DNA of 64,000 nucleotides, taken from NCBI GenBank assembly GCA_028692715.1, contig JAQUWU010000016.1, positions 23,271-87,270 on the forward strand, given 5' to 3'. Shown here piece after piece: positions 7,583 to 58,411 of the stretch. Source of the DNA: Paludibacter sp. (lineage in GTDB: Bacteria; Bacteroidota; Bacteroidia; Bacteroidales; Paludibacteraceae). The translations under genes were made by a program, and so were the position numbers. The notes under the pieces were generated by a model. The model saw nothing but the letters and a program-made list of their open reading frames with translations, ran no database searches and had not been told where the DNA came from. The number at the start of each line of letters is the position of its first letter. Positions within the stretch are counted from its first letter, which is position 1.

Positions 7583-7609
7583 AATATACGACCAAACGAT
7601 ATATACGGT

Positions 7610-7645
7610 TCAAATCCTTTTTAATAGGATTTGAGCTGTTTTTTT
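7610..7645 (+). terminator. Rho-independent terminator after the HTCS gene
   Basis: The 9-bp perfect stem TCAAATCCT (7610-7618) / AGGATTTGA (7626-7634) is followed by GCTG and a seven-T run (7639-7645), 28 bp after the stop codon. Confidence 0.85.
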
Positions 7646-8075
7646 ATTTGGTTATTCGCATAAGCTCCAAAAAATATTAAACTCAATAATTTTGTTTAAA
7701 AAAACAAATAATTCATTTTCAACCACGGATTTTACGAATTTACACTAAAAATTCAGATATATAATTCGTGATAACTCGTGAAATTAGTAGTTGTATTTTT
7801 TTATTTATAGTAACCATCTGTTTTAGAATCAAAAATCAATATTAATTTTTGTTCCTTCTGTAAATTAGGACAGCTTGCAGATAATCATATTTTTTTGTTA
7901 ATACAGACATTCGGCAGGCTTTATTGAATTGTGTTATTATTTAGCTTTATAGTTGATTGAATTATATTCTAGGTTATCGAATAAATTTCCATTGTATGAA
8001 AATTTTAAAATAAGTTATTTTGTAATATAAAAAAATAATCATTTATTAATATTAATCAAATTAAATCTATTTTTT
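7646..8075. other. Gene-free stretch between HTCS and the T9SS protein
   Basis: Very AT-rich, with no credible reading frame. Positions 7719-7790 (from AACCACGG through AATTCGTG..AACTCGTGAAATT) look like a decayed copy of the 'AACCACGGAT...ATTCGTGAT..TTCGTGAA' intergenic repeat common in Bacteroidota genomes (recalled from memory, not searched). The promoter of the next gene must lie in the final ~150 bp, but no clean TAnnTTTG box was found there. Confidence 0.4.
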
Positions 8076-23852: not shown

Positions 23853-23859
23853 TATTAGT

Positions 23860-41200: not shown

Positions 41201-41543
41201 ACTGAGAAAATGGTCCTTCAATATTTCTATTCAGTTTTTCGGCCAGTTTGTAATTGCCGGCTCTTAATGCTTCCCGTATTTCGGGAATATATTTATAAGT
41301 ATCCGGATTATCTGAAAGATTGTTGGGTTCACCCGACCAAAGGGTGGCATCGTTAAGGTAAATAATTTCTTTGTCCACTTTTCCAAAAACAGTAGCCCCT
41401 ATTTTCCCATTACCCTGTACAAATGTTTGTTCAAAAAACTCAGCCGGTTTATCGAACCAAAGTTTGATAGGTGATTGAGCAGACAGAAAGTTAATCGATA
41501 AAAGTGATACCAAAACCACGATGAAATTATATTTTCGATTCAT
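38214..41543 (-). CDS. GH95 alpha-L-fucosidase/alpha-L-galactosidase fused to a GH43-like domain
   Basis: A 1109-residue secreted two-enzyme fusion. A signal peptide (about 1-22) is followed by a full GH95 module (about 24-800) with start [24 protein letters not shown]. Predicted catalytic residues, by analogy with AfcA, are Asn394/Asn396 ([12 protein letters not shown]), Glu527 (STSPENKY) and Asp707 ([12 protein letters not shown]). GH95 removes terminal alpha-L-fucose or alpha-L-galactose, both of which occur on pectic side chains. Residues about 823-1109 form a five-bladed propeller of GH43 type with the expected acid triad: Asp870 (LMRDPCII), Asp990 (CIDATIVPF) and Glu1042 (WAEGPTS). GH43 members cut alpha-L-arabinofuranosyl, beta-xylosyl or galactosyl bonds. 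Both active sites look intact, and the fusion suggests that two sugars are removed from one side chain (inference). Confidence 0.9.
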
Positions 41544-42047: not shown

Positions 42048-44462
42048 ATGAAAAAATCGATGAAGATTACTCTTCTTTTATCGCTCGTCTTGTTGTTTGT
42101 AACAAGTTGTTCGAATGAAAAAGATGTATATTTCGCTCGTCCCACCTGGTTAGAACCTCCAATTTATCAGGTTTTACAAGAAAAAGGCAGATTCACAAAT
42201 TACCTCAAATGTGTTGATCGCACATTGTATGCATCATCGTTAAACGCTAGTGGATTGTACACTGTATTTGCACCAAACGACGATGCTTTTGCTACTTACC
42301 TTGCCGGTAAAGGTTATGCTACTGTAGCTGATATGCCCGATACACTGGTAAATCAAATTGTTAGTTATTCTATAGTGTATAATAGCTATTTGTTTGATCA
42401 TTTAACTGACGTATTAAGCAGTGGATGGGATACATTGACAAGTATAAAAAAGAAAACTACTTATTACGAATTAATTCATCAAGATATTTATAAAGGAAAA
42501 ACTGTTTGGGTTTATGATTTACCCTCTTTTAGTAGTGGTGATCAAAACTATAAATACGTTCCGTTTTATTTAAAGAGAGTCTTTGAAAGTTTGCGTTCAT
42601 CCTCTGTAGCAGCCGAAGATTATGGTATGTTTTATCCAGCACCGTCTCAATACACGGGTGAAAATATACAGAACGCCTCGATTTTGACAAAAGATATGAT
42701 TGCAGAAAATGGGGTCGTATATGAAATAAATCAAGTACTTGAGCCATTACAAAATTTCGAAAATCTTTTAAATAATTCCGATTATTCTGATTTTAAGGAT
42801 TTAATTAACACAACCGGATCTACCGGTGAACCTTATTTTATTACCTACCAATATGACAAAAGTTTGACAGACTATTTTATAGCTGCTGAACCCGATAAGA
42901 ATATAAATGAAGTATATATAAAGTATTATAGCGGGCTACAAGTAAATCTTAATGGTGAACGTTATGGTGAATCAATAAAAGAAGCTGAACAGGGAGGTTA
43001 TACTGTTTTTGCGCCCAATAATAGTGCTGTTCAGAAATTTTATAATGAAAAACTGAAAGATTATTATCCTAACGGAATAAAAACAGCATCGAAAGATGTG
43101 CTGAATTATTTTATTAATGCACAATTATGTCCGGATATGGTTTGGCCGGGCGATTTTAAGGGTAGTACGAATGTCTGGGGCGAATATTTAAATGGGATGG
43201 GAAGTCGTGGAGATGCATTCGATAAAACAAAATACACTAAAATTTCTCCCGCTAGCAATGGACTGTTCTACGGATCAAGTGATTACATAAAGAGTCGTTA
43301 TTTTGAAACTGTATTTACCGAAATACTTTTAAACTCGAAATATAGTTTATTGAATACAGCATTTCTTGAATTTTTTGAAACAACCTTAAAAGAAGAGTTG
43401 CTTCAATGTTCGTTAAACGGTTATACACAGGAAAATTACACAGTTCTGTTGCCATCTGACGAACTATTAAAGGCCGATGGTTTTGGTTGGCAATGGATAT
43501 CTGGTTCAAATGCTTATGGTTTTGTAAATTCGAACTCCGGATCAAGCCTTGGAAATTTTGATGTGAATACCCGTATACAACGTTTAGTAAAATCGCATAT
43601 TTTCAAGAGATTGAAAAATGATGATGTAAACTGTGCTATTACTGATTTTAAAACTGATCCGGCTTTTGAAACGGCTTATAATGGTTATTCGTATGCTGTA
43701 AACGAGTATGGTGATATGATTCGTTACAAAGATGGTCAAATAGAAATGTTGGGTAATAATGATGATAGTGAAGTTGTCACTGCAAAACTTTACAAAACAT
43801 TTACGAATGGTCAGGTCTTTACTATCGATAAAATGCTTCAATATTCACCCCGAAATACGTATCCATCGGCACCCGAAGGTTATGAAACAAATGATTTATA
43901 TCCTTATATTCTAAAAATGTCTTCAGGAACTCAAAACAGAAATGTTGCCTTGTTCAAAAACTATTTTGCCGCCTGTTTGAAAGGGGATGAAAGTAATGAA
44001 CTTGCCGGTTTATCTGCCGATATGGTGTTGACTATTTTTATGCCAACCAATACTGCTATAACCAAAGCAATTGCTAACGGTGACTTACCTACCATAACTC
44101 AGGTAAATGCAAGCGCCGCAGACCGTATTAAAGCAACAGCGTTTGTGCTTTACCACATAGTAAAAGGAAAGGTTTTTGTTGATGATGGATTGCCCTATAT
44201 AATGCCGAACGATGAAGTGAAGACAGAAGAAGTATGGCCTACAGCATTAAAAGATGTTGTAGATAATACTTATTTGGCTTTAAGAAAAAATGCAAATGGA
44301 AATTTGTTAGTATCTACAGTAGCTGAAAGTACTGGAAAACATTTTTCTTCAATGGAAAAAACGGCAACAGTAACAAGAGGAATTAAACGGAGTAACTATT
44401 TTGGAGCTAAAGCTGTATTACATGAAATAGATGATTATTTTGTATATCAAAAAGCACAGTAA
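42048..44462 (+). CDS. Multi-FAS1 (fasciclin) surface lipoprotein
   Basis: An 804-residue lipoprotein (lipobox LFVTSC, Cys about 21). It carries about four fasciclin-like units at roughly 35-230, 240-430, 430-610 and 625-804. Each has the H1/YTVFAPND-type core: YTVFAPNDDAFATY, YTVFAPNNSAVQKF, YTVLLPSDELL and LTIFMPTNTAIT. FAS1 domains mediate adhesion and ligand binding; none is catalytic. It is the first gene of a seven-gene operon and sits 25 bp before a SusC gene, the place where surface glycan-binding proteins are usually encoded. The role of a glycan-binding or scaffold partner of the SusCD complex is inference. Confidence 0.85.
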   Translation: MKKSMKITLLLSLVLLFVTSCSNEKDVYFARPTWLEPPIYQVLQEKGRFTNYLKCVDRTLYASSLNASGLYTVFAPNDDAFATYLAGKGYATVADMPDTLVNQIVSYSIVYNSYLFDHLTDVLSSGWDTLTSIKKKTTYYELIHQDIYKGKTVWVYDLPSFSSGDQNYKYVPFYLKRVFESLRSSSVAAEDYGMFYPAPSQYTGENIQNASILTKDMIAENGVVYEINQVLEPLQNFENLLNNSDYSDFKDLINTTGSTGEPYFITYQYDKSLTDYFIAAEPDKNINEVYIKYYSGLQVNLNGERYGESIKEAEQGGYTVFAPNNSAVQKFYNEKLKDYYPNGIKTASKDVLNYFINAQLCPDMVWPGDFKGSTNVWGEYLNGMGSRGDAFDKTKYTKISPASNGLFYGSSDYIKSRYFETVFTEILLNSKYSLLNTAFLEFFETTLKEELLQCSLNGYTQENYTVLLPSDELLKADGFGWQWISGSNAYGFVNSNSGSSLGNFDVNTRIQRLVKSHIFKRLKNDDVNCAITDFKTDPAFETAYNGYSYAVNEYGDMIRYKDGQIEMLGNNDDSEVVTAKLYKTFTNGQVFTIDKMLQYSPRNTYPSAPEGYETNDLYPYILKMSSGTQNRNVALFKNYFAACLKGDESNELAGLSADMVLTIFMPTNTAITKAIANGDLPTITQVNASAADRIKATAFVLYHIVKGKVFVDDGLPYIMPNDEVKTEEVWPTALKDVVDNTYLALRKNANGNLLVSTVAESTGKHFSSMEKTATVTRGIKRSNYFGAKAVLHEIDDYFVYQKAQ

Positions 44463-44487
44463 CGATAAATGAATTAATAAGAAAGAT

Positions 44488-47400
44488 ATGAAACATTATA
44501 TTAAAAAATTTATACCGGTCATTGTATCGCTGCTACTAAGTGTGAATGTACAGGCTCAACAGCCCAAAGTTGTAATTCACGGAAATATAACGGCAAAATC
44601 GGATAAGCAACCTTTGATAGGAGTATCTGTTGTAGAATTTGATGCAAATAATCGTATTTTGAATGGAACCACAACTGATTTCGATGGAAATTATGCCCTC
44701 AAACTTTCAGGTTCTAATGATGCCAAAGTTGCTTTTTCCTATATCGGATTCAAACAAATTGTTAAAACTGTAAATGCGTCAGGAACATTGAATATAGAAA
44801 TGGATGATGCAACACAAAAAATAAAAGAAGTAAACGTAACAGCCCGTAAACAGGTAAGCGCAGGTGTCGTTAATATTAATGAAAGGGATCTTACCTTTGC
44901 AATGAGTAAAATTGACTCTAAAGATTTGGAAGGGTTGCAGGTTGCCTCTATCGACGAAGCACTTCAGGGACGTATGTCGGGTGTGGATATTGTTGCAAAT
45001 GGTGGTGAGCCGGGTGCGGGAATGTCTATCCGAATTCGTGGTACAACTTCTATTAATAATGGTTCCGACCCTCTTATTGTAGTTGATGGAATACCTTATG
45101 ATACCAGTATTGGTGCCGATTTTGACTTTGCTACCGCTGATGAACAGAGTTACGCACAATTGCTGAATATATCACCGGCAGATATTGATGAAATCTCTGT
45201 TCTGAAAGATGCTGCTGCTACTGCCATGTATGGTAACCGTGGTGCAAACGGGGTTCTCTTAATTAAGACCAAACGTGGTACAATTAGCAAGCCAAGGGTA
45301 AATTACACCTTTAAAGGTTCTTTGAATACACCGGCTGAACCGATCAGTGTTCTTTCGGGTGACCAGTATACAACACTTATACTTGAAGCGGCACAAAATG
45401 CTGGGTCACCACTTAATACATCTAATTATCCTCAGTTTACATACGATCCGAACATACCTTATTATTTTAACAACTATGGACAAAATACAGATTGGTATAG
45501 TGCATTAACACAAGATGGTTATACACAAGATCATTCAATTTCACTTTCAGGTGGCGGCGAAAAAGCAATGTATAGAGCTTCTGTAGGATATTATAATCAA
45601 ACCGGTACTGTTATCGGTCAAAATTATAAGCGTTTGACATCTTCGTTGAACCTAGATTACAACGTGTCGGATTATTTGAAGTTTCAGGTTAGTTTATCTT
45701 ATACTCACGGTGATCAGGATAAAAACTATGCCACCGATTTACTAAACTCGGCATACACAAAAATGCCAAATATGTCCATTTATGAATATCTGTCAAACGG
45801 TGAGCTAACGCCAAATTATTTTTCGCCGGTGACCACACCACAGGGTTCGTTCACTTCGTTTAATTACGATAAGTCAACGGGGGGTGTTTACAATCCGGTT
45901 TCTATGGCATATAATGGTTATTGGAAGGTTAAGAGTGAACGTATTATTCCTAAATTCAATTTGCAATATTGGGCTATTCCTGAAGTCTTGAAATTTCAAG
46001 TCGACCTTGCTTTCGACATCAATACTTCAAAGGATAATCGGTTTCTTCCTCAGATTGCAACAGGTAGACTCTGGCCGGAATCAAGTGTAAATCGATCGAC
46101 CGATGGATATTCTGAATCGTTTACGGTTCAAACATTCGGTAAAGTATATTATACACCCAAATTGCCAGAAAATCATGATTTAATTGGATTATTTCAGGTC
46201 AGTACTTATGATGGAAAATACTCATCCTATAAGGAAGTAAGTGCATTAAGTGCCTCTACTTTTCTTCAGGATCCATCAATCCCTTCAGATATCATTGGTA
46301 CAGATTTAGGATTGAATTCAGGAAGTTCTCAGGCTCGAACAGCTTCGTTACTTGGAATGGTTCAATATAAATTTCTAGACAGATATATTATAAACGGAAC
46401 GGTTCGTCGTGATGGCGACTCAAAATACAGTATCGAAAATAGATTTGGATATTTTCCAAGTTTATCCGTTCGATATAGAGTTTCAGGTGAACCATTCATG
46501 AAGGATATTAAGTCTATTGATGATTTGAGTTTGCGTGCTTCTACCGGTCAAAGTGGTAATCCTGTAACTAAAAATTATTTATACTATAATACTTATAAAT
46601 CTTACGATTGGACTTACCTTGATCAACAAGGAGTTTATTCAAGTAATTTGCAACTTTCAAATTTGAAATGGGAAAAAGTAACTGATTATAATTTTGGTGG
46701 AAACCTGATTATGTTCAACTACCGCTTTAATATGGATTTTAATGTCTATAAAAAACGTACAAATGATTTATATTTTGAAGATGTTGCAATTTCCAGTGCT
46801 ACCGGGTTTAGTACTACTAACCAAAATGTTGGTACAATGGAAAACCGTGGTTGGGAATTAAGCATTATAACTCAACCAATACGAACGAAAGACTGGCAGG
46901 TAGACTTCAATTTATCATTTGCCCGCTCCGAAAATGAAATTACTTCATTATCAGACAATATCCCTTTGATTTCAACTCCAACAGCAGTTAATGGTAAATA
47001 TCTTACCAAACTACAAGAAGGTAATCCCTTAGGCTCATTCTATGGATATGTTTACGAAGGTGTTTATTTAAATGAAGAACAGACTATTGCCCGTGATGTA
47101 AATGACAATCCTATTTATACATACGATGAAAACGGTGTAAAAGAGGCAGTAAAAATGAGATTCTGGTATCCTTCCGTTGGTTATGAATTCCAACCCGGTG
47201 ATGCCAAATACAAAGATATTAATCATGATGGTAATATCAATTCTCAGGATATTGTGTACATTGGGAACTATAATCCTTTGTTGACTGGTGGTTTTGGACC
47301 AACTATTCGATACAAGAAATCGCTTAGCTTAACTGCTTATTTTTATTTCCGTTATGGTTTTGATGTAATTAATCAAACCCGTATGGAAACGGAAAGTATG

Positions 47401-47790
47401 TATGGATTCAGCAACCAGAGTACTGCCGTATTACGCCGTTGGAAACATGAATATACCGATCTGACAACTGCACCATCCGATATTTTACCAAGGGCTCTGT
47501 ATAGTAGTGGATACAACTGCTTAGGTTCCAGTCGATTTGTAGAAGATGGCTCATTTTTGCGTTTTAAATCGATGACATTAAATTATTATTTCGATCAAGC
47601 TCTTGTAAATAAAATAGGTGTTAGCGATGCAAAACTATGGCTTACAGTTCAAAATATTTACCTGTGGACAAAATATACTGGTATGGATCCGGAAGTGTCA
47701 GTAAAAAGTGGAATAACAAGTTTAGGTTATGATATTTCCCGCTCGGGTCGACCAATGGAATTTTCATTGGGGTTAAGCGTTTCATTTTAA
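44488..47790 (+). CDS. SusC-like TonB-dependent outer-membrane transporter (first pair)
   Basis: An 1100-residue outer-membrane importer with a signal peptide (about 1-24). A carboxypeptidase-regulatory-like domain (about 29-112) is followed by a TonB-box-like stretch (EVNVTARKQ), the plug domain (about 130-265, with RIRGTTSINNGSDPLIVVDGIPY and AAATAMYGNRGANGVLLIKTKRG) and a 22-strand barrel ending in a terminal FSLGLSVSF. No N-terminal STN domain, so no anti-sigma signalling is expected. It imports oligosaccharides with the adjacent SusD. The gene is in the usual SusC-then-SusD order, 21 bp apart. Confidence 0.95.
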   Translation: MKHYIKKFIPVIVSLLLSVNVQAQQPKVVIHGNITAKSDKQPLIGVSVVEFDANNRILNGTTTDFDGNYALKLSGSNDAKVAFSYIGFKQIVKTVNASGTLNIEMDDATQKIKEVNVTARKQVSAGVVNINERDLTFAMSKIDSKDLEGLQVASIDEALQGRMSGVDIVANGGEPGAGMSIRIRGTTSINNGSDPLIVVDGIPYDTSIGADFDFATADEQSYAQLLNISPADIDEISVLKDAAATAMYGNRGANGVLLIKTKRGTISKPRVNYTFKGSLNTPAEPISVLSGDQYTTLILEAAQNAGSPLNTSNYPQFTYDPNIPYYFNNYGQNTDWYSALTQDGYTQDHSISLSGGGEKAMYRASVGYYNQTGTVIGQNYKRLTSSLNLDYNVSDYLKFQVSLSYTHGDQDKNYATDLLNSAYTKMPNMSIYEYLSNGELTPNYFSPVTTPQGSFTSFNYDKSTGGVYNPVSMAYNGYWKVKSERIIPKFNLQYWAIPEVLKFQVDLAFDINTSKDNRFLPQIATGRLWPESSVNRSTDGYSESFTVQTFGKVYYTPKLPENHDLIGLFQVSTYDGKYSSYKEVSALSASTFLQDPSIPSDIIGTDLGLNSGSSQARTASLLGMVQYKFLDRYIINGTVRRDGDSKYSIENRFGYFPSLSVRYRVSGEPFMKDIKSIDDLSLRASTGQSGNPVTKNYLYYNTYKSYDWTYLDQQGVYSSNLQLSNLKWEKVTDYNFGGNLIMFNYRFNMDFNVYKKRTNDLYFEDVAISSATGFSTTNQNVGTMENRGWELSIITQPIRTKDWQVDFNLSFARSENEITSLSDNIPLISTPTAVNGKYLTKLQEGNPLGSFYGYVYEGVYLNEEQTIARDVNDNPIYTYDENGVKEAVKMRFWYPSVGYEFQPGDAKYKDINHDGNINSQDIVYIGNYNPLLTGGFGPTIRYKKSLSLTAYFYFRYGFDVINQTRMETESMYGFSNQSTAVLRRWKHEYTDLTTAPSDILPRALYSSGYNCLGSSRFVEDGSFLRFKSMTLNYYFDQALVNKIGVSDAKLWLTVQNIYLWTKYTGMDPEVSVKSGITSLGYDISRSGRPMEFSLGLSVSF

Positions 47791-47811
47791 TAATAGTAAA
47801 TCAGATAAAAT

Positions 47812-49410
47812 ATGAAAAGTTACAAAATTATATTAACCGTTATATTCGCCTTTTTGATGGTTTCCTGCACCAATTGGTTGACACTGGAACCCGAAGATGG
47901 AGTAACACTGGATGAATTCTGGAAAACCAAGGAACATGTTTATTCAGCGGTAACCGGTTGTTATTGTTCTTTGCAAAATGGTCCTGTCGAAAAGATGTTT
48001 TTATGGGGTGAAATACGCGGAGATATGGTTGAAAACGGTATTTATACCAATAGCAACTATTCAAATATAATTGATGGTGAAATTTCTGCAGAAAACAGTG
48101 TTGTAAATTGGTCATCATTATATACTGTTATCAATAACTGCAATATAGTATTGAAATTTGCTCCTGGAGTACGAGAAATTGACGGTACTTTTACCGAAAA
48201 GCAATTAAAAGCATACGAAGCCGAAGCTCTTACTATAAGAGCAATGATGTATTTTCAGTTGGTTCGGTCATTTAAAGATGTTCCACTAAGTCTTGAAGCA
48301 TTTGTAAGTGATGATCAGAATTTATATTTACCAAAAGTGTCGGGGGAGGCTATTCTTGATACTTTGGTTCGTGATTTGAAAATTGCTTCAGTCAATGCAC
48401 CTGTTACGTATGGATCTACTTCCGAAAATAAAAACAGAGTAACAGCATGGACAGCAAAAACTTTGTTGGCCGATATTTACTTGTGGCAGGAAAAATATAG
48501 CGAATGTTATACGCTATGTCAGGAAGTTATTGGATCCGGAAGATTTAGTATGATAACGGTTGATAAATCTGAGTATCCGGTGGAAGATGGTGGTGTAATT
48601 ATAGATACCGTATATGTTCCAAACGAATCCGATGCCGAACAGATGTTTATCAACTCCTATGTAATCGGTAACAGTGTTGAATCAATTTTTGAAATACCGT
48701 TTACAACTTTGAAAACAAATCCTTTTTACAGTATCTTAGGTCCGGATATTAATTTTCTGAAACCAAAATTGGAAGTAATTGACGGAACTATTTTTCCTGA
48801 GCCATTGTATTTGACTGCAAGTCAGGCTACTGATATCCGAGGCTCCGGTTGTACGTATAGAGCTGGTGTTGTATGGAAATACGTAGGTACCAGCCGAACC
48901 GGAGCAGTAAGAACATACTCAAACTATACAGCTCCTTGGATTGTTTATAAATATTCCGACATTTTATTGATGAAAGCTGAAGCAATGTGTGAGATAGGAT
49001 TAAATACACACGATGAGTCAGGACAGGATTATTATGAACAAGCTATTGCCAGTATGAATGAAGTACGTACTGCACGTAATGCAATAGAAACGGAGGATTA
49101 TAAATTTGTAGTAAACGATGTAGATGGAAAGTCGCTCGAAAAAACTATTTTAGCAGAAAGAGCCCGTGAATTTACTTTTGAAGGGAAACGATGGTACGAT
49201 GTTTTACGCTTTGCCAAAAGAAACGATTATGAAGGGACAAATATTCAATACCTTGTTAATCTCGCAATAAATAGTGCATCTCCTCAGAAACAACAAAGTC
49301 TTATAGCAAAATATAAAGACCCGAAACATAACAGTCATTATTGGCCAATCTATTACCGCGAAATTGAAACGAATAAAAATCTTATACAGAACGAATTTTA
49401 CGTAAAATAA
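47812..49410 (+). CDS. SusD/RagB-family lipoprotein (first pair)
   Basis: A 532-residue outer-membrane lipoprotein (lipobox FLMVSC) that forms the lid of the SusC transporter and binds the incoming glycan. The N-terminal SusD-like part (LTLEPEDGVTLDEFWKTKEHVY) and the C-terminal signature ERAREFTFEGKRWYDVLRFAKR are typical. TPR-like helices include YEAEALTIRAMMYFQLVR. The length is normal for the family. A 100-bp gap follows before the next FAS1 gene, without a visible terminator, so the operon likely continues. Confidence 0.95.
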   Translation: MKSYKIILTVIFAFLMVSCTNWLTLEPEDGVTLDEFWKTKEHVYSAVTGCYCSLQNGPVEKMFLWGEIRGDMVENGIYTNSNYSNIIDGEISAENSVVNWSSLYTVINNCNIVLKFAPGVREIDGTFTEKQLKAYEAEALTIRAMMYFQLVRSFKDVPLSLEAFVSDDQNLYLPKVSGEAILDTLVRDLKIASVNAPVTYGSTSENKNRVTAWTAKTLLADIYLWQEKYSECYTLCQEVIGSGRFSMITVDKSEYPVEDGGVIIDTVYVPNESDAEQMFINSYVIGNSVESIFEIPFTTLKTNPFYSILGPDINFLKPKLEVIDGTIFPEPLYLTASQATDIRGSGCTYRAGVVWKYVGTSRTGAVRTYSNYTAPWIVYKYSDILLMKAEAMCEIGLNTHDESGQDYYEQAIASMNEVRTARNAIETEDYKFVVNDVDGKSLEKTILAERAREFTFEGKRWYDVLRFAKRNDYEGTNIQYLVNLAINSASPQKQQSLIAKYKDPKHNSHYWPIYYREIETNKNLIQNEFYVK

Positions 49411-49510
49411 TCCATACTGTCGTGAAACAAACATTAACGAAGAAAATCTATATTGTTGTGGGATATCTGAAATGTGAGTTACATGTGACCTTAAAAAACA
49501 ATTTATTACA

Positions 49511-51295
49511 ATGAAAACTATTTATAATAAAATCGCCTACGGGATATTGGTAGTTGGAGCATTGCTTACTACATCAATTATTTTAAACTCATGCGCCGAC
49601 TATCTGGAAGGAAAGACATTTCTTACTTCAGATGATATAATGATAGATGAATACATCGAACAAAAGGACACGACCATGAGTGAGTTTCTGAAATTAGCTG
49701 ATAAAGCAGGATTTAGGGGAATGATACATGCTTATGGCACAAACACTTGTTTTGTTCCTACAAATCAGGCAATTAAAACCTATTGCGTGGATCATGGAAT
49801 CAGTACAATGGAGGATTTATCAGTGGAAGATTTGGAGAAATTTATGAAATTCCATATTGTAAGAGACACTATTAAGTCCAGCGAATTTGTTGATGGACGT
49901 TTTCCACAAGCAACAATGCTCGGTAAATTTCTTACTACCAAGACGATACAGGAGGGAGAAGATGACCCTGTTATCAGAGTGAATCGTCAAGCTAACATTC
50001 TTCAAAAAGATATTCGTGTAGCCAATGGCATCATTCATAAAATAGATTATGTGTTAACTCCAAATCAATTTACAGTAGGTGAAATGATTGAAATGTTGCC
50101 CGAAAACTATTCTCTTTTCAAATCGATAATGGAAGAAGCCGGTTTGATTGATACGTTAACGTTAAATAAAGCGGATGGACAATGGTATACCGCATTTTTA
50201 CAAAGTAATGAAGCTTTTGCAACAGTAGGTGTTACCAATAGGGAAACGCTTATTGAAAAAATGAAGAAAGCCCAACCTGATTATGAAGATAATGAAGCTG
50301 AATTGATTGATATTTATGCCCGTTATCATATTGTTAATCGCTTGGCTTATGTTACCGATTTATCTTTGTCAAGTTCTGAAATTACATTAGCTACCAATCA
50401 GGTGCTTACTTTTAAAAATAGCAAAGATACATTGCTCATAAATGAATACGAATCGCTTACTGAATTCGAAAAGGGTATTCCTATGAATAAAACATCGGAC
50501 TGGACTGACTACAGTTGTTACAATGGTGTGTTAGTAGATGTCGACGGATATGTTGAACCTGTAAAGAGGGGAGCGGAAGCTATATATTGGGAGTTAACCG
50601 ATCAGCCTGAAATCAAAAAACTCAAGGAATATCGTAAACCGGGACAATATGTTGTTTTCAAGCCGGGTGAACTTTCTGAACTTCAATTTGGGGGGAAAAA
50701 TAGCCCGACCATCACTTACTCGGTTGTTTCTGCATGGGACGAGAAAGCACAATATGTTCACGGTGATTTCTTTGAGATTCCAATGCGTCCAACTGTAATA
50801 CAGTGGATGGAAATAAAAACGCCTGTACTCACAGAGGGTGTTTATAATGTGTGGATTTGCTGGCGACGTGGTGGAGATAACAATAAATTTAAAACTACAT
50901 TTATGCAGGAAGGCAGAGAAGATCAAGCATTGCCAAATGTGTTCGATTTAGGTGAGTATTTTAGTACATCAAATACACCTGAAGTAAACCTGAACAATGG
51001 AATGAAACAATACAATGCAAAACAAAAAATCAGTGTGTTCTGTAGTCGTAACTGCGGTGCAATTAAAGTTGAATATACAGGCCGTCATACTTTACGTATG
51101 GATGCATTGAGTGGTAGTAGCCAAGCAGCATGGTGGGATATGATTCAGTTCATACCTGTTGATCAAGATCAACTTTGGCCTCGATTCGATAGTGCCGGAA
51201 ATGCAATTTATCCAATGGAAAACGATAGTTTAAATCTTAACTGTGCTACTATAGCACCATATGATCAACTTTGTGTTGGTGATTTAAGTAATTAA
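49511..51295 (+). CDS. FAS1 lipoprotein with a C-terminal beta-sandwich module
   Basis: A 594-residue lipoprotein (lipobox IILNSC, followed by ADYLEG). Two fasciclin-type domains cover about 45-185 (TCFVPTNQAIKTYC, VANGIIHKIDYVL) and 190-350 (YTAFLQSNEAFATV, YNGVLVDVDGYV). The C-terminal ~235 residues are a different beta-rich module: TPVLTEGVYNVWICWRRGG, then IKVEYTGRHTLRM and WWDMIQFIPVDQDQLWPRFD (the MIQFIPVDQD part at 544-553). The same module is recognisable in the T9SS protein at 58412-61306. Position next to SusD suggests a surface glycan-binding protein, with the C-terminal module as the candidate binding part (inference). Confidence 0.82.
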   Translation: MKTIYNKIAYGILVVGALLTTSIILNSCADYLEGKTFLTSDDIMIDEYIEQKDTTMSEFLKLADKAGFRGMIHAYGTNTCFVPTNQAIKTYCVDHGISTMEDLSVEDLEKFMKFHIVRDTIKSSEFVDGRFPQATMLGKFLTTKTIQEGEDDPVIRVNRQANILQKDIRVANGIIHKIDYVLTPNQFTVGEMIEMLPENYSLFKSIMEEAGLIDTLTLNKADGQWYTAFLQSNEAFATVGVTNRETLIEKMKKAQPDYEDNEAELIDIYARYHIVNRLAYVTDLSLSSSEITLATNQVLTFKNSKDTLLINEYESLTEFEKGIPMNKTSDWTDYSCYNGVLVDVDGYVEPVKRGAEAIYWELTDQPEIKKLKEYRKPGQYVVFKPGELSELQFGGKNSPTITYSVVSAWDEKAQYVHGDFFEIPMRPTVIQWMEIKTPVLTEGVYNVWICWRRGGDNNKFKTTFMQEGREDQALPNVFDLGEYFSTSNTPEVNLNNGMKQYNAKQKISVFCSRNCGAIKVEYTGRHTLRMDALSGSSQAAWWDMIQFIPVDQDQLWPRFDSAGNAIYPMENDSLNLNCATIAPYDQLCVGDLSN

Positions 51296-51315
51296 AAAAC
51301 AAAAATATATACATT

Positions 51316-53004
51316 ATGAATTGTAAATATATATCTAAACGTATCTTATCATTACCATTGTTTGCATTAATATTGCTGTTTGGTGGATGTTACGAATCAG
51401 CATGGGAAAATCATATTGGAAACGATGAGTTTGTTGGGAAAAATCTTTTTGAGGCCATTTCAACCAAACCTCAACTCTCGATATTTTATTCGGTTCTTAA
51501 AAAAACGGGGTATGATGAACTTATTCAAAATGCAAATAGCTATACTGTTTTTGCGCCCGAAAATGATGCTTGGGCAGCTGTAGATACCAGCGATGTTGAA
51601 GTGCTGACTAAAATTGTGGGGATGTTAATCGTTTACCAATCCTATTTTACCGATAATGAGCAATTTTATAAATCGATAAAAGCGGTGAATCAGAAAAATA
51701 TTTTTTATGATATAAATACGAAGACATTCAATGGTGCCAAAATAGTAGATGGTGATTATCGTACTTCAAATGGCGTTTTACACATAACAGATAAGCTCAT
51801 TGAACGTAAAGAAAATATATGGAATTTCTTGTCTACTAAAACAACCTATAAGCAATTTCTATTTATAAATAAGCTGAATACAAGTATAATGGATCTGGAC
51901 AAAAGTATTGCAACCGGTGTCTATCCTGATGGGAAAACAAAATATGATACTATTTGGAAAAATATAAACAATTTTTTGAATGTATTTCCTCTCGAAAATG
52001 AAGATTCAGTTTATACTTATGTAATAGTTGAAAACTCCGGATTCGACTTATTATATAATAAATATAAAAAATATTTCACTATGTCCACAACCCAAAAAAC
52101 GGATTCTGCAACCAATTTTAATGTCTGTCAGGATTTTGTATTTAAAGGTATTGTTGATATAACTTCTGTAGACACACTCGAAAATGTCGATGGTGTTAAA
52201 GTGCCTATGACAAATGTTCAGATTTCAGAAACTTACAATGCATCAAACGGTAGAGTATATGTTATTAATCAAAGTAACATCAGGCTAAGAGATAAAATCA
52301 AACCTATCAAAATTGAAGGTGAAAATTTTTACACAGCATACGATGCAAATTATGTGTTTACCCGCTACAAACTTGATGCCAGCGGGGAACGTGACATTGT
52401 CCTATCCTGTCAGGAATCACAATCTGATACACTATGGAGAAAAGTTCCTATTGCTCCCGATACAATTGGACGTAGAGATAGTATTGCGTCGAAAACGTAT
52501 TATGTAAATAATAATTTGGTGGCAAATAAGGCAAATTTCTATATTGAATATAAAGCGCAAGTGAATTCAACAGAATACGATGTTTATTATGTTGCGTATG
52601 ACGATATTGCTACTCATTTTGATCCAACATATACTTCGTTTGGTGTGTATAAAATAATACAGAAACTATTTGTATCAATGCCGGGTGCTTCTACTCTTAA
52701 ATATGGAATAACAGATAATACCAGTGGAATTGCCAATAATTATCTTGGAGAATCAACCTGTTTTGTGGGTGAAGGTCTCGCTGGAGTCAAAGAGCTGACA
52801 AAACTCAAAAAATGGAGTTTAATACCAACAACTCAATTAATAGATGCACCACTTACAACCACAGATTCAGATGTAATGACTGTCCCAAAAAGTGGTACCA
52901 TGACTATGTGGCTATGTAATTCGGCCAGAAGTATAACTGCCAAATATCAGGGTATGTTATTCCTCGATTATATATTATTAGTTCCCAAAATTACTGAAGA
53001 TTAA
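51316..53004 (+). CDS. FAS1 lipoprotein, third of the operon
   Basis: A 562-residue lipoprotein (lipobox LLFGGC). The first FAS1 domain covers about 38-165 (NSYTVFAPENDAWAAVD, SNGVLHITDKLIE). A second, more diverged one covers about 168-320 (YTYVIVENSGFDLLYNKY, NGRVYVINQSNI). The C-terminal ~240 residues are beta-rich, beginning IKIEGENFYTAYDANYVF and ending TMTMWLCNSARS...MLFLDYILLVPKI, similar in layout to the module of the preceding FAS1 protein but more distant. It lies 20 bp after that gene and just before the second SusC gene. Confidence 0.8.
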   Translation: MNCKYISKRILSLPLFALILLFGGCYESAWENHIGNDEFVGKNLFEAISTKPQLSIFYSVLKKTGYDELIQNANSYTVFAPENDAWAAVDTSDVEVLTKIVGMLIVYQSYFTDNEQFYKSIKAVNQKNIFYDINTKTFNGAKIVDGDYRTSNGVLHITDKLIERKENIWNFLSTKTTYKQFLFINKLNTSIMDLDKSIATGVYPDGKTKYDTIWKNINNFLNVFPLENEDSVYTYVIVENSGFDLLYNKYKKYFTMSTTQKTDSATNFNVCQDFVFKGIVDITSVDTLENVDGVKVPMTNVQISETYNASNGRVYVINQSNIRLRDKIKPIKIEGENFYTAYDANYVFTRYKLDASGERDIVLSCQESQSDTLWRKVPIAPDTIGRRDSIASKTYYVNNNLVANKANFYIEYKAQVNSTEYDVYYVAYDDIATHFDPTYTSFGVYKIIQKLFVSMPGASTLKYGITDNTSGIANNYLGESTCFVGEGLAGVKELTKLKKWSLIPTTQLIDAPLTTTDSDVMTVPKSGTMTMWLCNSARSITAKYQGMLFLDYILLVPKITED

Positions 53005-53024
53005 TACTTTTTTTGAAAAGACTT

Positions 53025-56000
53025 ATGAAACATTTAAAATATTTTATAGTACTTATTGCCCTCGTTGCAGGTATCAATATTACGGCTTTTGCTCAGAAAA
53101 GTGTTGTTGATTGTGTAATAAAAGGAACTGTAGTTGAAACAGCAACCGGTAAACCCATTTCCGGTGCGTCAATCACTATTCCCGGAGTAACTTCGGTACT
53201 ATCCAACGATAATGGGGAGTTTATAATAAAGAAAACGATTGACGGGGCTCAAATTAATGTTGTAGCTCTCGGATATGCACCTAAAAGATTGACACTAAAT
53301 GGCAAATCCGAAATCAAGATTTTTATGATTGATGAATCATTTAAAGGAAATTACGAGGATGTTTTGCTTCCTTTTGGTACATCCAATGCCCTCGAAAATG
53401 CATTAACAGTCTCGACACACGAAAACAGAAATGATTATTTGACCGGGGCATCTAGCGTAGAAACAATTTTGCAAACATCCGTTAATGGGTTGAATGTAGT
53501 TTCGCGAAGCGGTTCTCCAAATGCAGGAGCAAATATTAGTTTGAACGGGATTAATAGTTTGAACATAAATTCGCAACCTTTAATAGTCGTTGATGGAATA
53601 ATTTATGACAATCAACCAATTTATTCTCTTATAAGCGGAAATAATATTTCGGCTCTATCCGACATTGATATTAAAGACATTGAAAATATAACCGTTTTGA
53701 AGGATGGAGCATCAATTTATGGTTCGAAAGGTGCAAATGGCGTTATTCTAATAAACACTATTCAGGCAAAAAGCTCGGCTACACGTATTAATTTTTATAC
53801 TTATGCCGGCGTTAATTTTGAACCTACAACAAATTATAAAATGATGGGTGCTACTGACTATAAAAATTATATTTCCGACATGGCCGCTAATTACGGACTT
53901 AGTACCAATCAAATTAATTCATTACCTTATATTAACACCGATAAGCCGGTTGTTGAAGATTGGGGTGTTTCCGGAAATGAAGATTATTATCGATATAATC
54001 AGTACACTGACTGGCAAAACGAAGTTTTTCAGAGCTCATTAAATCAGAATTATCATTTAAATATTACGGGTGGTAACGAAACTACTTTACTTGCTATTTC
54101 TGTTGGTTATCTCGGACAGGGCGGTAATGTGAAAAATACCGATTATAGTCGTTATTCAACGCGTGTAAATGCACAAATTAAAATGAATGACTGGTTTAAA
54201 CTGAATGCGAATATCAGTTTTATTTATTCAGAAAGAAATTTATCTTTTGAAGGATTGAACCGAAATTTTAGTCCGGTATATTCTTCGCTGATTAAAGCTC
54301 CTTTTACTTCTCCTTATGTTTATAATGTGTTGGGCGAGCAGACTCCAAATTACGAAGGGGTCGATGTTTTCAATGTTTCGAATCCGGTAGTTCTAAACCA
54401 ATACACCTCATCAAATAACCGTTTCCGTTTCGTTGGAATCATGAACGGTCAGTTTACTTTTTCTGAATACCTCAAAGGTGATATCATTTTTGGGTTAACG
54501 TCGGATAAGGTAACGAAAGAAAGAGTCTTTTTACCCAATGAAGGTGTTGCCCACGATGTATTGGCAAGCGGTTACATTACTAACGAGTCACAACAATTAC
54601 GTAACAGCTTAAGTCAGGTAAACACTAACTCCTTCTTTAGTTACGATCGTATTTTCGATTATGTTCATAATTTCTCAGCACATTTGGGCTTTCGATTTCA
54701 ATCAGGAACTAACGAGTTGGATTATGGAATGGCATACAATACTTCCAGTGATGAAATGCAAACACTTGGTGATGGTCTGAATTCACTTGCGCAAGTAGGA
54801 GGTAGCCTTGGTTCATGGAATTATATATCCGATTATTTGAATGTGAATTATGGATATATGAATAAATACTTTGTGTCGGTTAATACTGCTCTTGATGGTT
54901 CATCCCGATTTGGAGCCGATGCAGAAGGCTTGAAAATGTTTAATCATGTTTATGGATTTTTCCCTTCGGTAAATGCTGCATGGATCATTACATCAGAAGA
55001 ATTTATGAAAAATCAGCAAGTACTAGATGTGTTGAAATTGAGAGCCGGATATTCAGTTACCGGTAATGATGATATTGGAAATTATGCAGCGACTTCTTAT
55101 TATATCCCTCAGGGATTGCTTGGAGCTTATGGCTTGGTTCGTGGAAACATTCCCAATAGTTCATTAAAATGGGAAACGAACAATAAAGCCAGTTTTGGAG
55201 TTGATGCCTCTTTTTTGAAAGAAAGATTAAATCTAAGTCTAGATCTTTACAGTAGTAGGACTGATAACCTGATTAATATTAAACAACTGAATACTGTTTC
55301 CGGATTCTCAGTGGTATTGCTGAATGATGGAGCTCTTTCAAATCAGGGTATTGACTTAAATGTAAATGGACGTATTATTGATCATTCAAATTTAAAATGG
55401 GATATGGGATTAAACATCTCAACCTATAAAAATACGTTGACATCATCATCCAACGACGAACTCCTTACACCAATTGCAGGTGGAACTATTCGTTCTAAAG
55501 TAGGTGCTCCTGTTGCACAGTTTTACGGTTATCAAACTGATGGAATTTTATCTTCAACCGCCATTGCAACTTCAGAAAATTTGAATATTGAAAATTCAGA
55601 TGGTTCACTAACACCCTTCACAGCTGGGGATGTAAGATTTGTTGATCAAGATGGAAATCATACTATTGATAGTGAAGACATGGTAGTAATAGGTGATCCA
55701 AATCCGGATTTCTTTGGTTCAATAAACAGCCGGATTCAATGGAAGAATTTTAGTTTGAATGCTTTAATTGCATATTCTTATGGGAATGATGTATATAACG
55801 CTATGCGTGCAAGTCTTGAATCAATGTCAGGAACTGATAATCAGACACAAGCTGCTATTTATCGTTGGAGAACGGACGGGCAAGAAACAAGTATGCCAAA
55901 AGCTGTTTGGAGTGATCCAATGGGTAACTCTCGTTTCTCAGATCGATGGATTGAGGATGGTTCCTATATTCGATTGAAATCGATTTCTTTGGCTTACGAT

Positions 56001-56192
56001 TTTAATATTAAATCAAATATCTTTAAAAATGCACAAGTTTATCTTACTGCTAATAATCTGCTGACTTTCACCAAATATCTTGGATACGATCCGGAATTCA
56101 GTATAGGTCAGAGTGCTTTGTATTCTGGAATTGACAGTGGAGTTTCACCACAACCAAAAACAGTTTTAATTGGTGTTAAAATAGGATTATAA
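53025..56192 (+). CDS. SusC-like TonB-dependent outer-membrane transporter (second pair)
   Basis: An outer-membrane importer of about 1055 residues. The frame can be opened by a TTG at 53013, but the ATG at 53025 (MKHLKYFIVLIALVAG) gives a standard signal peptide and is preferred. A carboxypeptidase-regulatory-like domain (about 33-110, IKGTVVETATGKPISGASITIPG) is followed by a plug (about 125-250, LNGINSLNINSQPLIVVDGIIY and DGASIYGSKGANGVILINT) and a barrel ending in KTVLIGVKIGL. It is clearly different from the first SusC in the operon, so the two probably accept different oligosaccharides (inference). Confidence 0.94.
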   Translation: MKHLKYFIVLIALVAGINITAFAQKSVVDCVIKGTVVETATGKPISGASITIPGVTSVLSNDNGEFIIKKTIDGAQINVVALGYAPKRLTLNGKSEIKIFMIDESFKGNYEDVLLPFGTSNALENALTVSTHENRNDYLTGASSVETILQTSVNGLNVVSRSGSPNAGANISLNGINSLNINSQPLIVVDGIIYDNQPIYSLISGNNISALSDIDIKDIENITVLKDGASIYGSKGANGVILINTIQAKSSATRINFYTYAGVNFEPTTNYKMMGATDYKNYISDMAANYGLSTNQINSLPYINTDKPVVEDWGVSGNEDYYRYNQYTDWQNEVFQSSLNQNYHLNITGGNETTLLAISVGYLGQGGNVKNTDYSRYSTRVNAQIKMNDWFKLNANISFIYSERNLSFEGLNRNFSPVYSSLIKAPFTSPYVYNVLGEQTPNYEGVDVFNVSNPVVLNQYTSSNNRFRFVGIMNGQFTFSEYLKGDIIFGLTSDKVTKERVFLPNEGVAHDVLASGYITNESQQLRNSLSQVNTNSFFSYDRIFDYVHNFSAHLGFRFQSGTNELDYGMAYNTSSDEMQTLGDGLNSLAQVGGSLGSWNYISDYLNVNYGYMNKYFVSVNTALDGSSRFGADAEGLKMFNHVYGFFPSVNAAWIITSEEFMKNQQVLDVLKLRAGYSVTGNDDIGNYAATSYYIPQGLLGAYGLVRGNIPNSSLKWETNNKASFGVDASFLKERLNLSLDLYSSRTDNLINIKQLNTVSGFSVVLLNDGALSNQGIDLNVNGRIIDHSNLKWDMGLNISTYKNTLTSSSNDELLTPIAGGTIRSKVGAPVAQFYGYQTDGILSSTAIATSENLNIENSDGSLTPFTAGDVRFVDQDGNHTIDSEDMVVIGDPNPDFFGSINSRIQWKNFSLNALIAYSYGNDVYNAMRASLESMSGTDNQTQAAIYRWRTDGQETSMPKAVWSDPMGNSRFSDRWIEDGSYIRLKSISLAYDFNIKSNIFKNAQVYLTANNLLTFTKYLGYDPEFSIGQSALYSGIDSGVSPQPKTVLIGVKIGL

Positions 56193-56228
56193 GAAATGAA
56201 AATTGCAAATAACATAAAACAAAGAAAT

Positions 56229-58106
56229 ATGAAATTCAAAAATATAATTGCAGTTTCGGTTATGTCAGTAATCTGTATTTTCGGACTTAGTTCGTGCGAC
56301 GATATGCTGAATTCTAATGCAGAGGAAGTAGTTGATACAACTGAAAATTTTCAGAATGTTTACGATGCTGACAATGCCATTTGGGGATTGTACGGAAAGT
56401 TCTCGCTGCTTGCCGAGAATGTTGTAGTAATGAATGAGTTACGGGCTGACTTAATGGACGTTACTCCAAATGCTACACCTGATGAGGTTGCTATTAACAG
56501 CAATACTGCTACCGCCGACAATAAATATTGTGATCCTACTCCGTTTTACGAGGTGATTCTAAATGCTAACGATATACTTACTAATTACGACAAGATGCTG
56601 GCCGAAAATAAAATATCAAAAGAAGATTATGACCCTCGATATTCTGATGTAATGGCTATACGTAGCTGGACTTATTTGCAATTGGGCATTCAGTTTGGCG
56701 AAGTACCTTATATTACTGACCCATTGAATAGTATTGATGAGATAAACAATGAATCCCTTTTTCCAAAATTGTCACTTGATCAATTGATTATTCAGCTTAT
56801 CGAAGATATGGAAGGTGTCCCAACGCTTGAAATAAATACTTTATCGACCTACTACAATAAAACAATTCAGGACAACGGAAAATCTTTTTATCTGAATATG
56901 CAGTTTATTAATAAGCATCTTCTTTTGGGCGATTTATATCTATGGAACGACCAGTATGTTCAAGCTGCAACACAATACAAGGCTTATATGGATGCCGATG
57001 ATGAAGGTTCTTCTAAACCACAAATCAATAATAAAGTGAGTGGTTGGGTTTGGGCAGGGACCAATGAACCACGCTTCCAGATTTGTTATCAGCGTTACAA
57101 AGATCAGGATGTTACGTCATTCCGTAATATGTGGAAAGAAATGTTTTTTCGTAATAGTACCGATGTTACAAGTTCTGGAACAATGAGTTTGCAGGATGAG
57201 ATGATTTGGATGATTAGTTTCAGCGGAACATCTGAATCCTCTAGTCCTTTCGTGACATTATTTGCGAATACTTATGAGGGTAAATATCAACTTAAACCCT
57301 CGGCTTATGCTATTGATAGCTTGTGGGAGATTCAAGTGCAACAATCAAATGGATTCGTTTTCGACGGTCGTGGTAGGGAGTCATCATTTGATTATGTAAA
57401 CGGCGAGCCAGTTGTTCTTAAATATCTATATAACTATTATGATATTTATACAACCGATGATAATAAAACCATTCACTTGAATTATAACACTATATCAAAT
57501 CCTTATTCCAAAACAGGAAAATGGTTTTTGTATAAAGCAGGATTGTTACATTTACGTTATGCTGAGGCAGCAAATCGGGCCGGATATCCAAAACTGGCTT
57601 ATGCATTGTTAAACAATGGTATAAAAACCAACTATGACTGGCCTAAAAGCGATGGAACATTGCGTGCAGATAAAGAAGGTGTACAATATACCAGTTTTCC
57701 TCCGGCAAATGATTCGGTGGCAGCTGAGCCTTATCCCGATCCATTTTATCTGGATGCTCGACAGAATGATGATCCTTACACTTACCTGCGTTCAGCATGG
57801 AGAGATAATGCCGGAATCCGTAATCGTGCTTTCCTTTTGAATATTTCAAAACCAGACTGGGTAGTGAACAAAGCTGATTCTATTGAGTGGCTGGAACAGG
57901 CTATTATCAAAGAACAAGCACTTGAGTGCGGTCTGGAAGGACATCGTTGGGCTGATTTATTGCGAATTGCCCGCAGAAACAACAAAGAAGGCAAAGGAAG
58001 TGTTTCGTCATACATGAATAAGGTTGTTCAACATAAAAATAATGCCGGAGGTTCAGGAGTGTCTGCTATTACTGACAATAATCTCTTCTTGCCAATGAAG
58101 GAGTAG
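56229..58106 (+). CDS. SusD/RagB-family lipoprotein (second pair)
   Basis: A lipoprotein of about 625 residues. An ATG at 56196 gives 11 extra residues, but the one at 56229 starts MKFKNIIAVSVMSVICIFGLSSC, a clean lipoprotein signal, and is preferred. SusD features include YDADNAIWGLYGKFSLLAEN, the helix SDVMAIRSWTYLQLGIQFGEVPY and the C-terminal signature EQALECGLEGHRWADLLRIARR. It is longer than most SusD proteins (about 500-550), with the extra length in the ligand-binding insert region. It is the last gene of the operon, followed within 25 bp by a strong terminator. Confidence 0.94.
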   Translation: MKFKNIIAVSVMSVICIFGLSSCDDMLNSNAEEVVDTTENFQNVYDADNAIWGLYGKFSLLAENVVVMNELRADLMDVTPNATPDEVAINSNTATADNKYCDPTPFYEVILNANDILTNYDKMLAENKISKEDYDPRYSDVMAIRSWTYLQLGIQFGEVPYITDPLNSIDEINNESLFPKLSLDQLIIQLIEDMEGVPTLEINTLSTYYNKTIQDNGKSFYLNMQFINKHLLLGDLYLWNDQYVQAATQYKAYMDADDEGSSKPQINNKVSGWVWAGTNEPRFQICYQRYKDQDVTSFRNMWKEMFFRNSTDVTSSGTMSLQDEMIWMISFSGTSESSSPFVTLFANTYEGKYQLKPSAYAIDSLWEIQVQQSNGFVFDGRGRESSFDYVNGEPVVLKYLYNYYDIYTTDDNKTIHLNYNTISNPYSKTGKWFLYKAGLLHLRYAEAANRAGYPKLAYALLNNGIKTNYDWPKSDGTLRADKEGVQYTSFPPANDSVAAEPYPDPFYLDARQNDDPYTYLRSAWRDNAGIRNRAFLLNISKPDWVVNKADSIEWLEQAIIKEQALECGLEGHRWADLLRIARRNNKEGKGSVSSYMNKVVQHKNNAGGSGVSAITDNNLFLPMKE

Positions 58107-58130
58107 TATTATATACTATTTACATAAAGA

Positions 58131-58175
58131 AATACCTTAGCATTTTAAGTGAACAAATGCTAAGGTATTTTTTTT
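58131..58175 (+). terminator. Strong rho-independent terminator closing the SusCD operon
   Basis: A perfect stem of about 14 bp, ATACCTTAGCATTT / AAATGCTAAGGTAT, is followed by an eight-T run ending at 58175. The remaining ~235 bp up to the next gene hold no recognisable gene. Confidence 0.92.
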
Positions 58176-58411
58176 AAAATTAAAAATTCAAATTTTTCAA
58201 TAATCCGAAACCTCATGTGATTTGTAAATAGCTAATTATTAGTAGATATGTATGAAATTACATGTCAAAACACAATTTTCCATTGATTAAAAATGAAGAA
58301 AGATGTAATTTTGAACTAACTAATTTATTTAGGTATTCTAGAAACACTATCAATATTTACGAAGTTCTACATACCTTAAATATTAATACTAATATTTTAA
58401 ATATAATAACC

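Follow-up and report, generated by a model that had tools for sequence, protein, structure and literature searches.

Outer-membrane protein and lipoprotein genes at Bacteroidota glycan loci raise the question of which proteins work together, and it is posed in an unusual form by a predicted seven-gene operon of Paludibacter sp., in which lipoproteins with fasciclin (FAS1) domains alternate with two SusC-SusD (SusCD) pairs. SusCD systems are the main route of complex glycan uptake in Bacteroidota. The operon lies in a stretch of 64,000 nucleotides (contig JAQUWU010000016.1, positions 23,271 to 87,270; hereafter the window) and reads FASa-SusC1-SusD1-FASb-FASc-SusC2-SusD2, these names being labels of the present analysis. 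Are the FAS1 lipoproteins parts of the transporters beside which they are encoded, and are the two SusCD pairs equivalent? The order recurs in many genomes, the seven proteins diverge together, and the two SusC families differ in their TonB-box signal. We consider it moderately probable that a glycan of the pectin type, probably a rhamnogalacturonan, is taken up by one co-inherited outer-membrane apparatus encoded by the seven genes, with the division of roles proposed below.

Architecture of the operon

A preliminary description of the locus had listed this seven-gene order at positions 42048-58106, and the open reading frame (ORF) list, Pfam and NCBIfam agree on the order and on the families (Table 1). 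Both SusC proteins exceed the TIGR04056 cut-off of 368 bits over their full length, and both SusD proteins exceed the SusD_RagB cut-off of 23.1 bits, SusD1 with 89.3 bits. All three FAS1 lipoproteins score above the cut-off of Pfam PF02469, which at E 0.01 also matches 57/57 FASb and 55/57 FASc proteins; NCBIfam offers no usable name for any of the three. FAS1 stretches are all that Pfam finds in FASa, and FAS1 domains cover only part of FASb and FASc. FASa, whose translation begins with a lipobox-like start (...FVTSCSNEKD), opens the operon, and its orthologue is likewise the first gene in related modules. A FAS1 gene had been placed beside every SusD; this holds for SusD1, which is followed by FASb, and fails for SusD2, after which there is none in the window.

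Counted from the outermost starts, the intergenic gaps measure 25, 21, 100, 20, 8 and 3 bp. SusC2 is called from a TTG with an ATG available at codon 5; starting SusC2 there, and SusD2 at its own internal ATG (codon 12), changes the final two gaps to 20 and 36 bp. The operon is closed, as had been described, by a single strong terminator: 20-bp arms (58126-58145 and 58155-58174) enclose a 9-nt loop and are accompanied by a T run, with a minimum free energy of -21.9 kcal/mol (z -7.75) that is equalled in 0 of 200 shuffles. A stock scan, which returned 9 terminator-like sites in the window and 9.4 in shuffles, missed this hairpin because it takes loops of 3-8 nt. Promoter-like sites numbered 93 in the window versus 82.9 in shuffles, and a Bacteroidota -33/-7 promoter pattern matched four times versus 5.1 expected, at no place before FASa. 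Pfam detects no hydrolase or other enzyme among the seven operon proteins, in line with the earlier description; GH95 and RGL11 genes stand outside the operon.

Conservation of the module

The same genome contains four complete copies of the module, one in the window, which reaches the end of contig C111, and the others on contigs C106, C15 and C94; a fifth copy is apparently split across the ends of contigs C45 and C37. Among the copies each gene finds its best match in its own position, at about 19-44% identity, and 11 of the 32 SusC-family matches in the genome, corresponding to ten genes, fall in the five modules. A SusC pair on contig C91 has copy-like spacing but is not a module copy.

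Hidden Markov models (HMMs) made from the genome copies detected the order elsewhere in the genus as well as in further families. In this set SusC2 is present in 30 of 31 loci, and all seven genes stand in order in 23 of those 30, three of the 23 being copies of this genome and one having FASa cut at the edge; the fragments L017, L018, L061 and L063 are left out of the locus count, and the weak FAS1-only matches L064, L065 and L067-L070 lie outside any module. A neighbour-blind scan with the SusC2 alignment alone gave 595 stretches, 592 of which encode a relative, and the best 80, from named Bacteroidota loci, were analysed; a few loci occur in both sets (L049/L071, L040/L082, L041/L091, L054/L117). 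These 80 include loci of Paludibacter, Prevotella, Bacteroides reticulotermitis, Paraprevotella clara, Pedobacter, Mucilaginibacter, Flavobacterium limi, Leeuwenhoekiella, Echinicola, Niabella, Sphingobacterium, Muribaculaceae and Prolixibacteraceae. Of the 80 loci, 75 have space for FASc, and in all 75 it lies immediately 5' of SusC2, at a median distance of 18 bp and at most 648 bp; in the other five SusC2 is at the contig end or too close to it. The search for FAS1-SusCD synteny across Bacteroidota that the preliminary description had called for thus finds all seven genes in order in 58 of the best 80. In those 58 the 10-kb limit of the flank mostly truncates FASa, and a weak score is sometimes the sole sign of it. 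Median gaps between the genes are 12-31 bp. FASb is missing in three of the 80 (L117, L141, L147), and in 19 contig or locus ends or ORF calling interfere, as in L145. Because it recurs in many genomes, the gene order is beyond chance.

Within a sample of the phylum, near-full-length FASc was found in 8/395 genomes, with two further partial FAS1 matches, and FASa of at least 735 bits in 8/375 genomes, the identical eight.

Several variants of the module were seen. Genomes G002 and G269 hold six-gene relatives, FASa-SusC1-SusD1-FASb-SusC2-SusD2 without FASc (L151, 2818-15350, and L066/L152), with weaker FASa matches (172 and 198 bits), SusC2 proteins of 919 and 933 aa that have no N-terminal extension, and a BNR-repeat protein thereafter. 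In genome G397, FASb-type genes lie 5' of FASa in L056 (several) and L058, and the customary FASb slot is vacant in L054 and L058. Among near relatives of the window module, L044 and L049/L071 encode after SusD2 a protein of 672-691 aa with a weak FASb match; no such FASb-like protein follows SusD2 in L047, which is also near, or in the window.

Co-divergence of the seven proteins

Pairwise distances computed for each of the seven proteins across 62 non-redundant modules show mutual correlations of r 0.90-0.96, and for FASb versus SusC2 none of 1000 permutations gave a correlation as high as that observed. Nearest neighbours agree at the level of single modules: L044 is nearest to the window module for all seven genes, L079 is nearest to L013 for all seven, and L045, L050 and L052 are likewise concordant. 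Across the whole set nearest-neighbour agreement is 56-71%. Paralogous modules within the genus provide a partial check on the effect of species history.

Synteny and co-divergence bear out one part of the earlier proposal, in which FAS1 proteins acted as glycan-binding or capping partners of the transporters: that the FAS1 lipoproteins would be dedicated partners is strongly supported at the level of sequence. The other parts fare less well, in that a separate domain, described below, is a likelier glycan binder than FAS1 itself, and nothing in the present data points to a capping role.

Predicted structures of FASb and FASc

The AlphaFold2 (AF2) models of FASb (mean predicted local distance difference test score, pLDDT, 91.0; predicted template modelling score, pTM, 0.84) and FASc (mean pLDDT 84.2, pTM 0.80) each consist of tandem FAS1 domains and a separate C-terminal β-sandwich. 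In these predicted models the sandwich has the fold of carbohydrate-binding module (CBM) families CBM6 and CBM35, resembling CBM6/CBM35/CBM36 modules (2cdp, 2w47, 1w0n) and MiXBM (7ehg). Pfam gives a CBM match at E 0.01 for 0/57 FASb and 0/57 FASc (114 proteins), and since there is no profile match we call the domains CBM-like and do not assign them to a family. On the models, glycan binding more plausibly resides in this C-terminal domain than in FAS1.

Animal FAS1 proteins, among them TGFBIp, periostin and fasciclin I (PDB 7asg, 5yjg, 1o70), give the best structural matches. Unlike these, FASb and FASc are bacterial lipoproteins that carry the C-terminal CBM-like sandwich, and sequence searches of the PDB listed 32 and 27 matches, none with a name that marks it as a SusCD-linked protein of Bacteroidota. 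A lipobox-like cysteine followed by an acidic residue occurs in 42/67 FASb and 64/71 FASc, compared with 4/73 SusC1 and 1/78 SusC2 as controls.

DUF5108 is matched in 13/57 FASb proteins and was not seen in three FASb scanned singly. In FASc, W30 is near-invariant just past the lipid cysteine (residues 25-33, about 51388-51414), and this region recalls the C-x-x-W-L start of SusD1 (CTNWL); the shared motif may be a SusC-docking motif.

Unequal TonB-box signal in SusC1 and SusC2

In the levan SusC BT1763, deletion or mutation of the TonB box (VDEVVV) causes growth defects like those seen on loss of SusD (PMC7782687). In our alignment the linker that follows the N-terminal extension tends to E-V-x-V-T-A in SusC1 and does not in SusC2. 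With patterns that are crude and were composed after viewing SusC1, the strict form matched 60/95 SusC1 (3.2% in shuffles) versus 2/107 SusC2, the loose form 84/95 versus 22/107, and a third, unaligned form 48/95 versus 9/107; among other SusCs of this genome the strict form matched 10/17.

A profile was also derived from other SusCs, originally from 19 stretches, two of which were mis-picked (L155, L167), and later from the remaining 17. With the 19-stretch version, scores exceed the 95th percentile of shuffled sequences in 19/20 other SusCs (leave-one-out), 34/95 SusC1 and 2/110 SusC2, with medians of 7.21 versus 3.38 shuffled for SusC1 and 2.36 versus 2.56 shuffled for SusC2; the SusC1 and SusC2 sets of the pattern and profile counts contain a few duplicate loci. 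At family level SusC1 thus shows a TonB-box signal exceeding that of shuffles, and SusC2 shows none outside one small clade with a box-like stretch. Because it has no recognisable TonB box at family level, we file SusC2 as a SusC/RagA protein by homology and not as a demonstrated TonB-dependent transporter. TonB coupling may have decayed in most SusC2 lineages.

Association with pectin-type enzymes

Rhamnogalacturonan lyase family 11 (RGL11) was found in 21/395 sampled genomes, namely in 7/8 module genomes versus 14/387 others (odds ratio 186, p 3e-9). The control xylanase family GH10 (glycoside hydrolase, GH) was found in 100/395 genomes, including 6/8 module genomes (odds ratio 9, p 0.004). 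Of the 23 genomes of genus g10, three have the module and four have RGL11, with an overlap of three (p 0.002); GH10 occurs in 11 and also overlaps with the module in three (p 0.09).

In the flanks of named loci, where 175/215 ORFs were Pfam-scanned (the remainder being one set of 37 together with three that exceed 1,400 aa), there are seven RGL11, seven GH28, at least six rhamnogalacturonase-type and at least two GH88 proteins, as uncontrolled raw counts from the 25 commonest families. By a direct, likewise uncontrolled comparison, a pectin-type enzyme lies in the covered stretch of 18/63 usable named loci and of 2/23 others. The copies of this genome adjoin GH28, GH2, apiosidase-like and GH88 genes, the window copy being near RGL11. 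Our best guess for the substrate is pectin, probably rhamnogalacturonan.

On one short contig without SusCD (L017, G000:C48), a lone FASb-type FAS1 lipoprotein adjoins an RGL11 lyase gene (4802-6694 and 6938-9112).

A proposed uptake apparatus and its alternatives

In the apparatus that we propose, SusC1-SusD1 would act as the energised importer, an assignment made because the SusC1 family keeps the TonB-box signal, and SusC2-SusD2 would most likely be its partner in a hetero-complex, a docking or capture part and not an independent pump. The tandem FAS1 domains of FASb and FASc would serve as a stalk or protein-binding scaffold and their CBM6/CBM35-like domains would bind glycan at the surface; the FAS1 repeats of FASa would be a scaffold or spacer, and the depolymerising enzymes would be supplied by genes outside the operon. 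The proposal starts from the observed gene order, its conservation, the co-divergence, the predicted folds, the family-level TonB-box difference and the RGL11 association; the physical complex, the ligand, the TonB independence of SusC2 and the roles of the FAS1 domains are what we infer. A stricter form, which we put forward tentatively and regard as rather unlikely, is an obligate heteromer in which a TonB-energised SusC1-SusD1 and a TonB-blind pseudo-transporter SusC2-SusD2, decayed to docking or capture, form an assembly that centres on the three FAS1 lipoproteins, of which FASb and FASc carry CBM-like domains. If true, such a heteromeric machine, specialised for branched pectins, would place a second class of architecture beside the symmetric SusC2D2 utilisome among the glycan importers of Bacteroidota.

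A number of observations weigh against the proposal of one apparatus. The observed co-divergence needs no physical complex, and species history accounts for part of it; some modules, e.g., L048, have mixed nearest neighbours; and the link between module and pectin is partly common to a general plant-feeding lifestyle. Alternatively, the operon could encode two independent homodimeric transporters of the SusC2D2 type that take up two products of one polysaccharide, are each served by a separate FAS1 protein as surface glycan binder, and share co-regulation only. Such an arrangement has precedents in the tandem SusC/SusD pair within one xylan polysaccharide utilisation locus (PUL; PMC11784079) and in the SusC2D2 cores of the levan and dextran systems (PMC7618045). 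We nevertheless think two independent transporters unlikely, given that in none of the 80 loci is SusC2 without FASc where there is room for it, that the order is maintained across wide divergence, and that a family-level difference in the TonB box is unexpected for two pumps. It is improbable that the FAS1 proteins are adhesins that attach the cell to the walls of plant cells independently of transport. The resemblance to animal proteins, of which fasciclin I is titled a cell adhesion molecule, points that way, as does a FAS1 protein read as a sign of cell adhesion in PMC10199937; however, the strict interleaving with SusCD genes and the co-divergence with both SusCs speak against adhesion, and the CBM-like C-termini suit capture for uptake equally.

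The unequal roles given to the two SusCs are likewise open to objection. Taken alone, the KEVNVTA stretch of the window SusC1 is non-significant, as 78 of 500 shuffles reach its score, and the SusC1 stretches of the two six-gene relatives are likewise non-significant singly. A small Bacteroidaceae clade retains a D-D-I-V-I-T-A-like stretch in SusC2 (L130, L141, L147 and, less clearly, L125), and a Y....LP.G stretch is common to part of the SusC2 family, Y, P and G being the most frequent residues at their own linker columns (0.60, 0.61 and 0.55). TonB boxes bind largely by backbone pairing, which also favours the idea that SusC2 is still driven by TonB, either through this divergent box or by another TonB paralogue. 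We regard that idea as doubtful: the Y....LP.G stretch is altered or deleted elsewhere (L060, L143 and Prevotella loci), and the SusC2 proteins of the two six-gene relatives have no N-terminal extension and score, at their N-termini, no better than shuffles.

Relation to known systems

In the levan and dextran utilisomes (PMC7618045), SusCD forms a complex with a glycan-binding lipoprotein and an enzyme on a SusC2D2 core. The operon studied here resembles them in its SusC barrel, SusD lid and surface lipoproteins, and in the placement of a glycan-binding domain C-terminally on a lipoprotein stalk, which here is a predicted feature. It differs from them in several respects. It has two different SusCD pairs where they have one, and three FAS1 lipoproteins, with FAS1 domains standing where the levan binding protein has Ig-like stalk domains. 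A surface hydrolase is missing from the operon, the enzyme being encoded outside it, and in most of the lineages represented here one of the two SusC families shows no recognisable TonB box; the core would be asymmetric. B. thetaiotaomicron has a PUL (BT4145-4183) that PMC11784079 labels as one for rhamnogalacturonan I; by that label it is a SusCD-type locus directed at the kind of glycan proposed here. A FAS1 domain protein appears in the figure legend of a cellulose/hemicellulose-like PUL in PMC4891872. No description of the FAS1-SusCD module was found among the top-ranked papers of the full-text literature searched, whose coverage mostly excludes subscription journals, and the one paper listed there for a SusC without a TonB box concerned colicin M-type toxins.

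Carriers of the module are spread over many Bacteroidota, and some of their genera contain gut species (Bacteroides, Prevotella, Paraprevotella). An order-locked operon in which three FAS1 lipoproteins accompany two unequal SusCD pairs would give FAS1 proteins a role in the phylum, and the analysis reveals on FASb and FASc a predicted carbohydrate-binding-like domain that Pfam leaves unmarked. It would also suggest that a SusC can lose TonB coupling and yet be retained, and it makes the existence of a SusC heterodimer directly testable.

Genomic surroundings

The susC-susD genes, carbohydrate-active enzymes and a sensor-regulator lie near one another in the window, which identifies the region as a PUL. 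Besides the features in Table 1 the window encodes a PcRGLX-type protein, which we take to be PL26-like, two GH127 proteins, a GH2 protein, GDSL and SASA esterases, and UxuA. The hybrid two-component regulator is a possible regulator of the locus.

Table 1 Features of the operon and its surroundings (window coordinates; T9SS, type IX secretion system; HTH, helix-turn-helix)
Feature	Position	Strand	Description and evidence
FASa	42048..44462	+	804-aa lipoprotein with three or more FAS1 repeats; Fasciclin E 5e-31 in Pfam, over 3 stretches
SusC1	44488..47790	+	SusC/RagA barrel, N-terminal extension (CarbopepD_reg_2), plug; TIGR04056 732 bits and Pfam
SusC1 TonB-box-like stretch	44824..44844	+	KEVNVTA, residues 113-119
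SusD1	47812..49410	+	lipoprotein; SusD_RagB E 5e-25; SusD-like_3 E 2e-17
FASb	49511..51295	+	594-aa lipoprotein, two FAS1 domains and C-terminal β-sandwich; Fasciclin E 6e-25
FASb tandem FAS1 domains	49628..50560	+	residues 40-350
FASb C-terminal CBM-like β-sandwich	50573..51160	+	residues 355-550
FASc	51316..53004	+	562-aa lipoprotein, two FAS1 domains and C-terminal β-sandwich; Fasciclin E 1e-15
FASc tandem FAS1 domains	51424..52281	+	residues 37-322
FASc C-terminal CBM6/35-like β-sandwich	52300..52986	+	residues 329-557
SusC2	53013..56192	+	SusC/RagA barrel, N-terminal extension, plug; TIGR04056 641 bits over 36-1058; Plug E 1e-12
SusC2 linker, N-terminal extension to plug	53322..53441	+	residues 104-143; expected place of TonB box, none recognised
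SusD2	56196..58106	+	divergent SusD lipoprotein; SusD_RagB 29.7 bits; position HMM
Intrinsic terminator, operon end	58126..58174	+	inverted repeat and folding
RGL11 protein with T9SS tail	32271..36827	-	RGL11_C E 2e-218
GH95 enzyme, divergent from operon	38214..41543	-	Pfam
Hybrid two-component regulator	3233..7582	+	Reg_prop, Y_Y_Y, HisKA, response regulator, AraC HTH

Downstream of SusD2, positions 58262-61306 encode a T9SS protein of 1014 aa, and a transposase (DDE_Tnp_1 with DUF4372) at 62198-63463 adjoins the pectin locus close to the contig end. Between the regulator and the two GH127 genes lies an 813-aa protein (8076-10517) with a sub-threshold T9SS tail and no Pfam match at E 0.001. 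On the minus strand, the genes at 22689-24026 (GDSL esterase with a T9SS tail) and 23860-24915 (351 aa, no family) share 167 nt, which may reflect a frameshift or a mis-called start.

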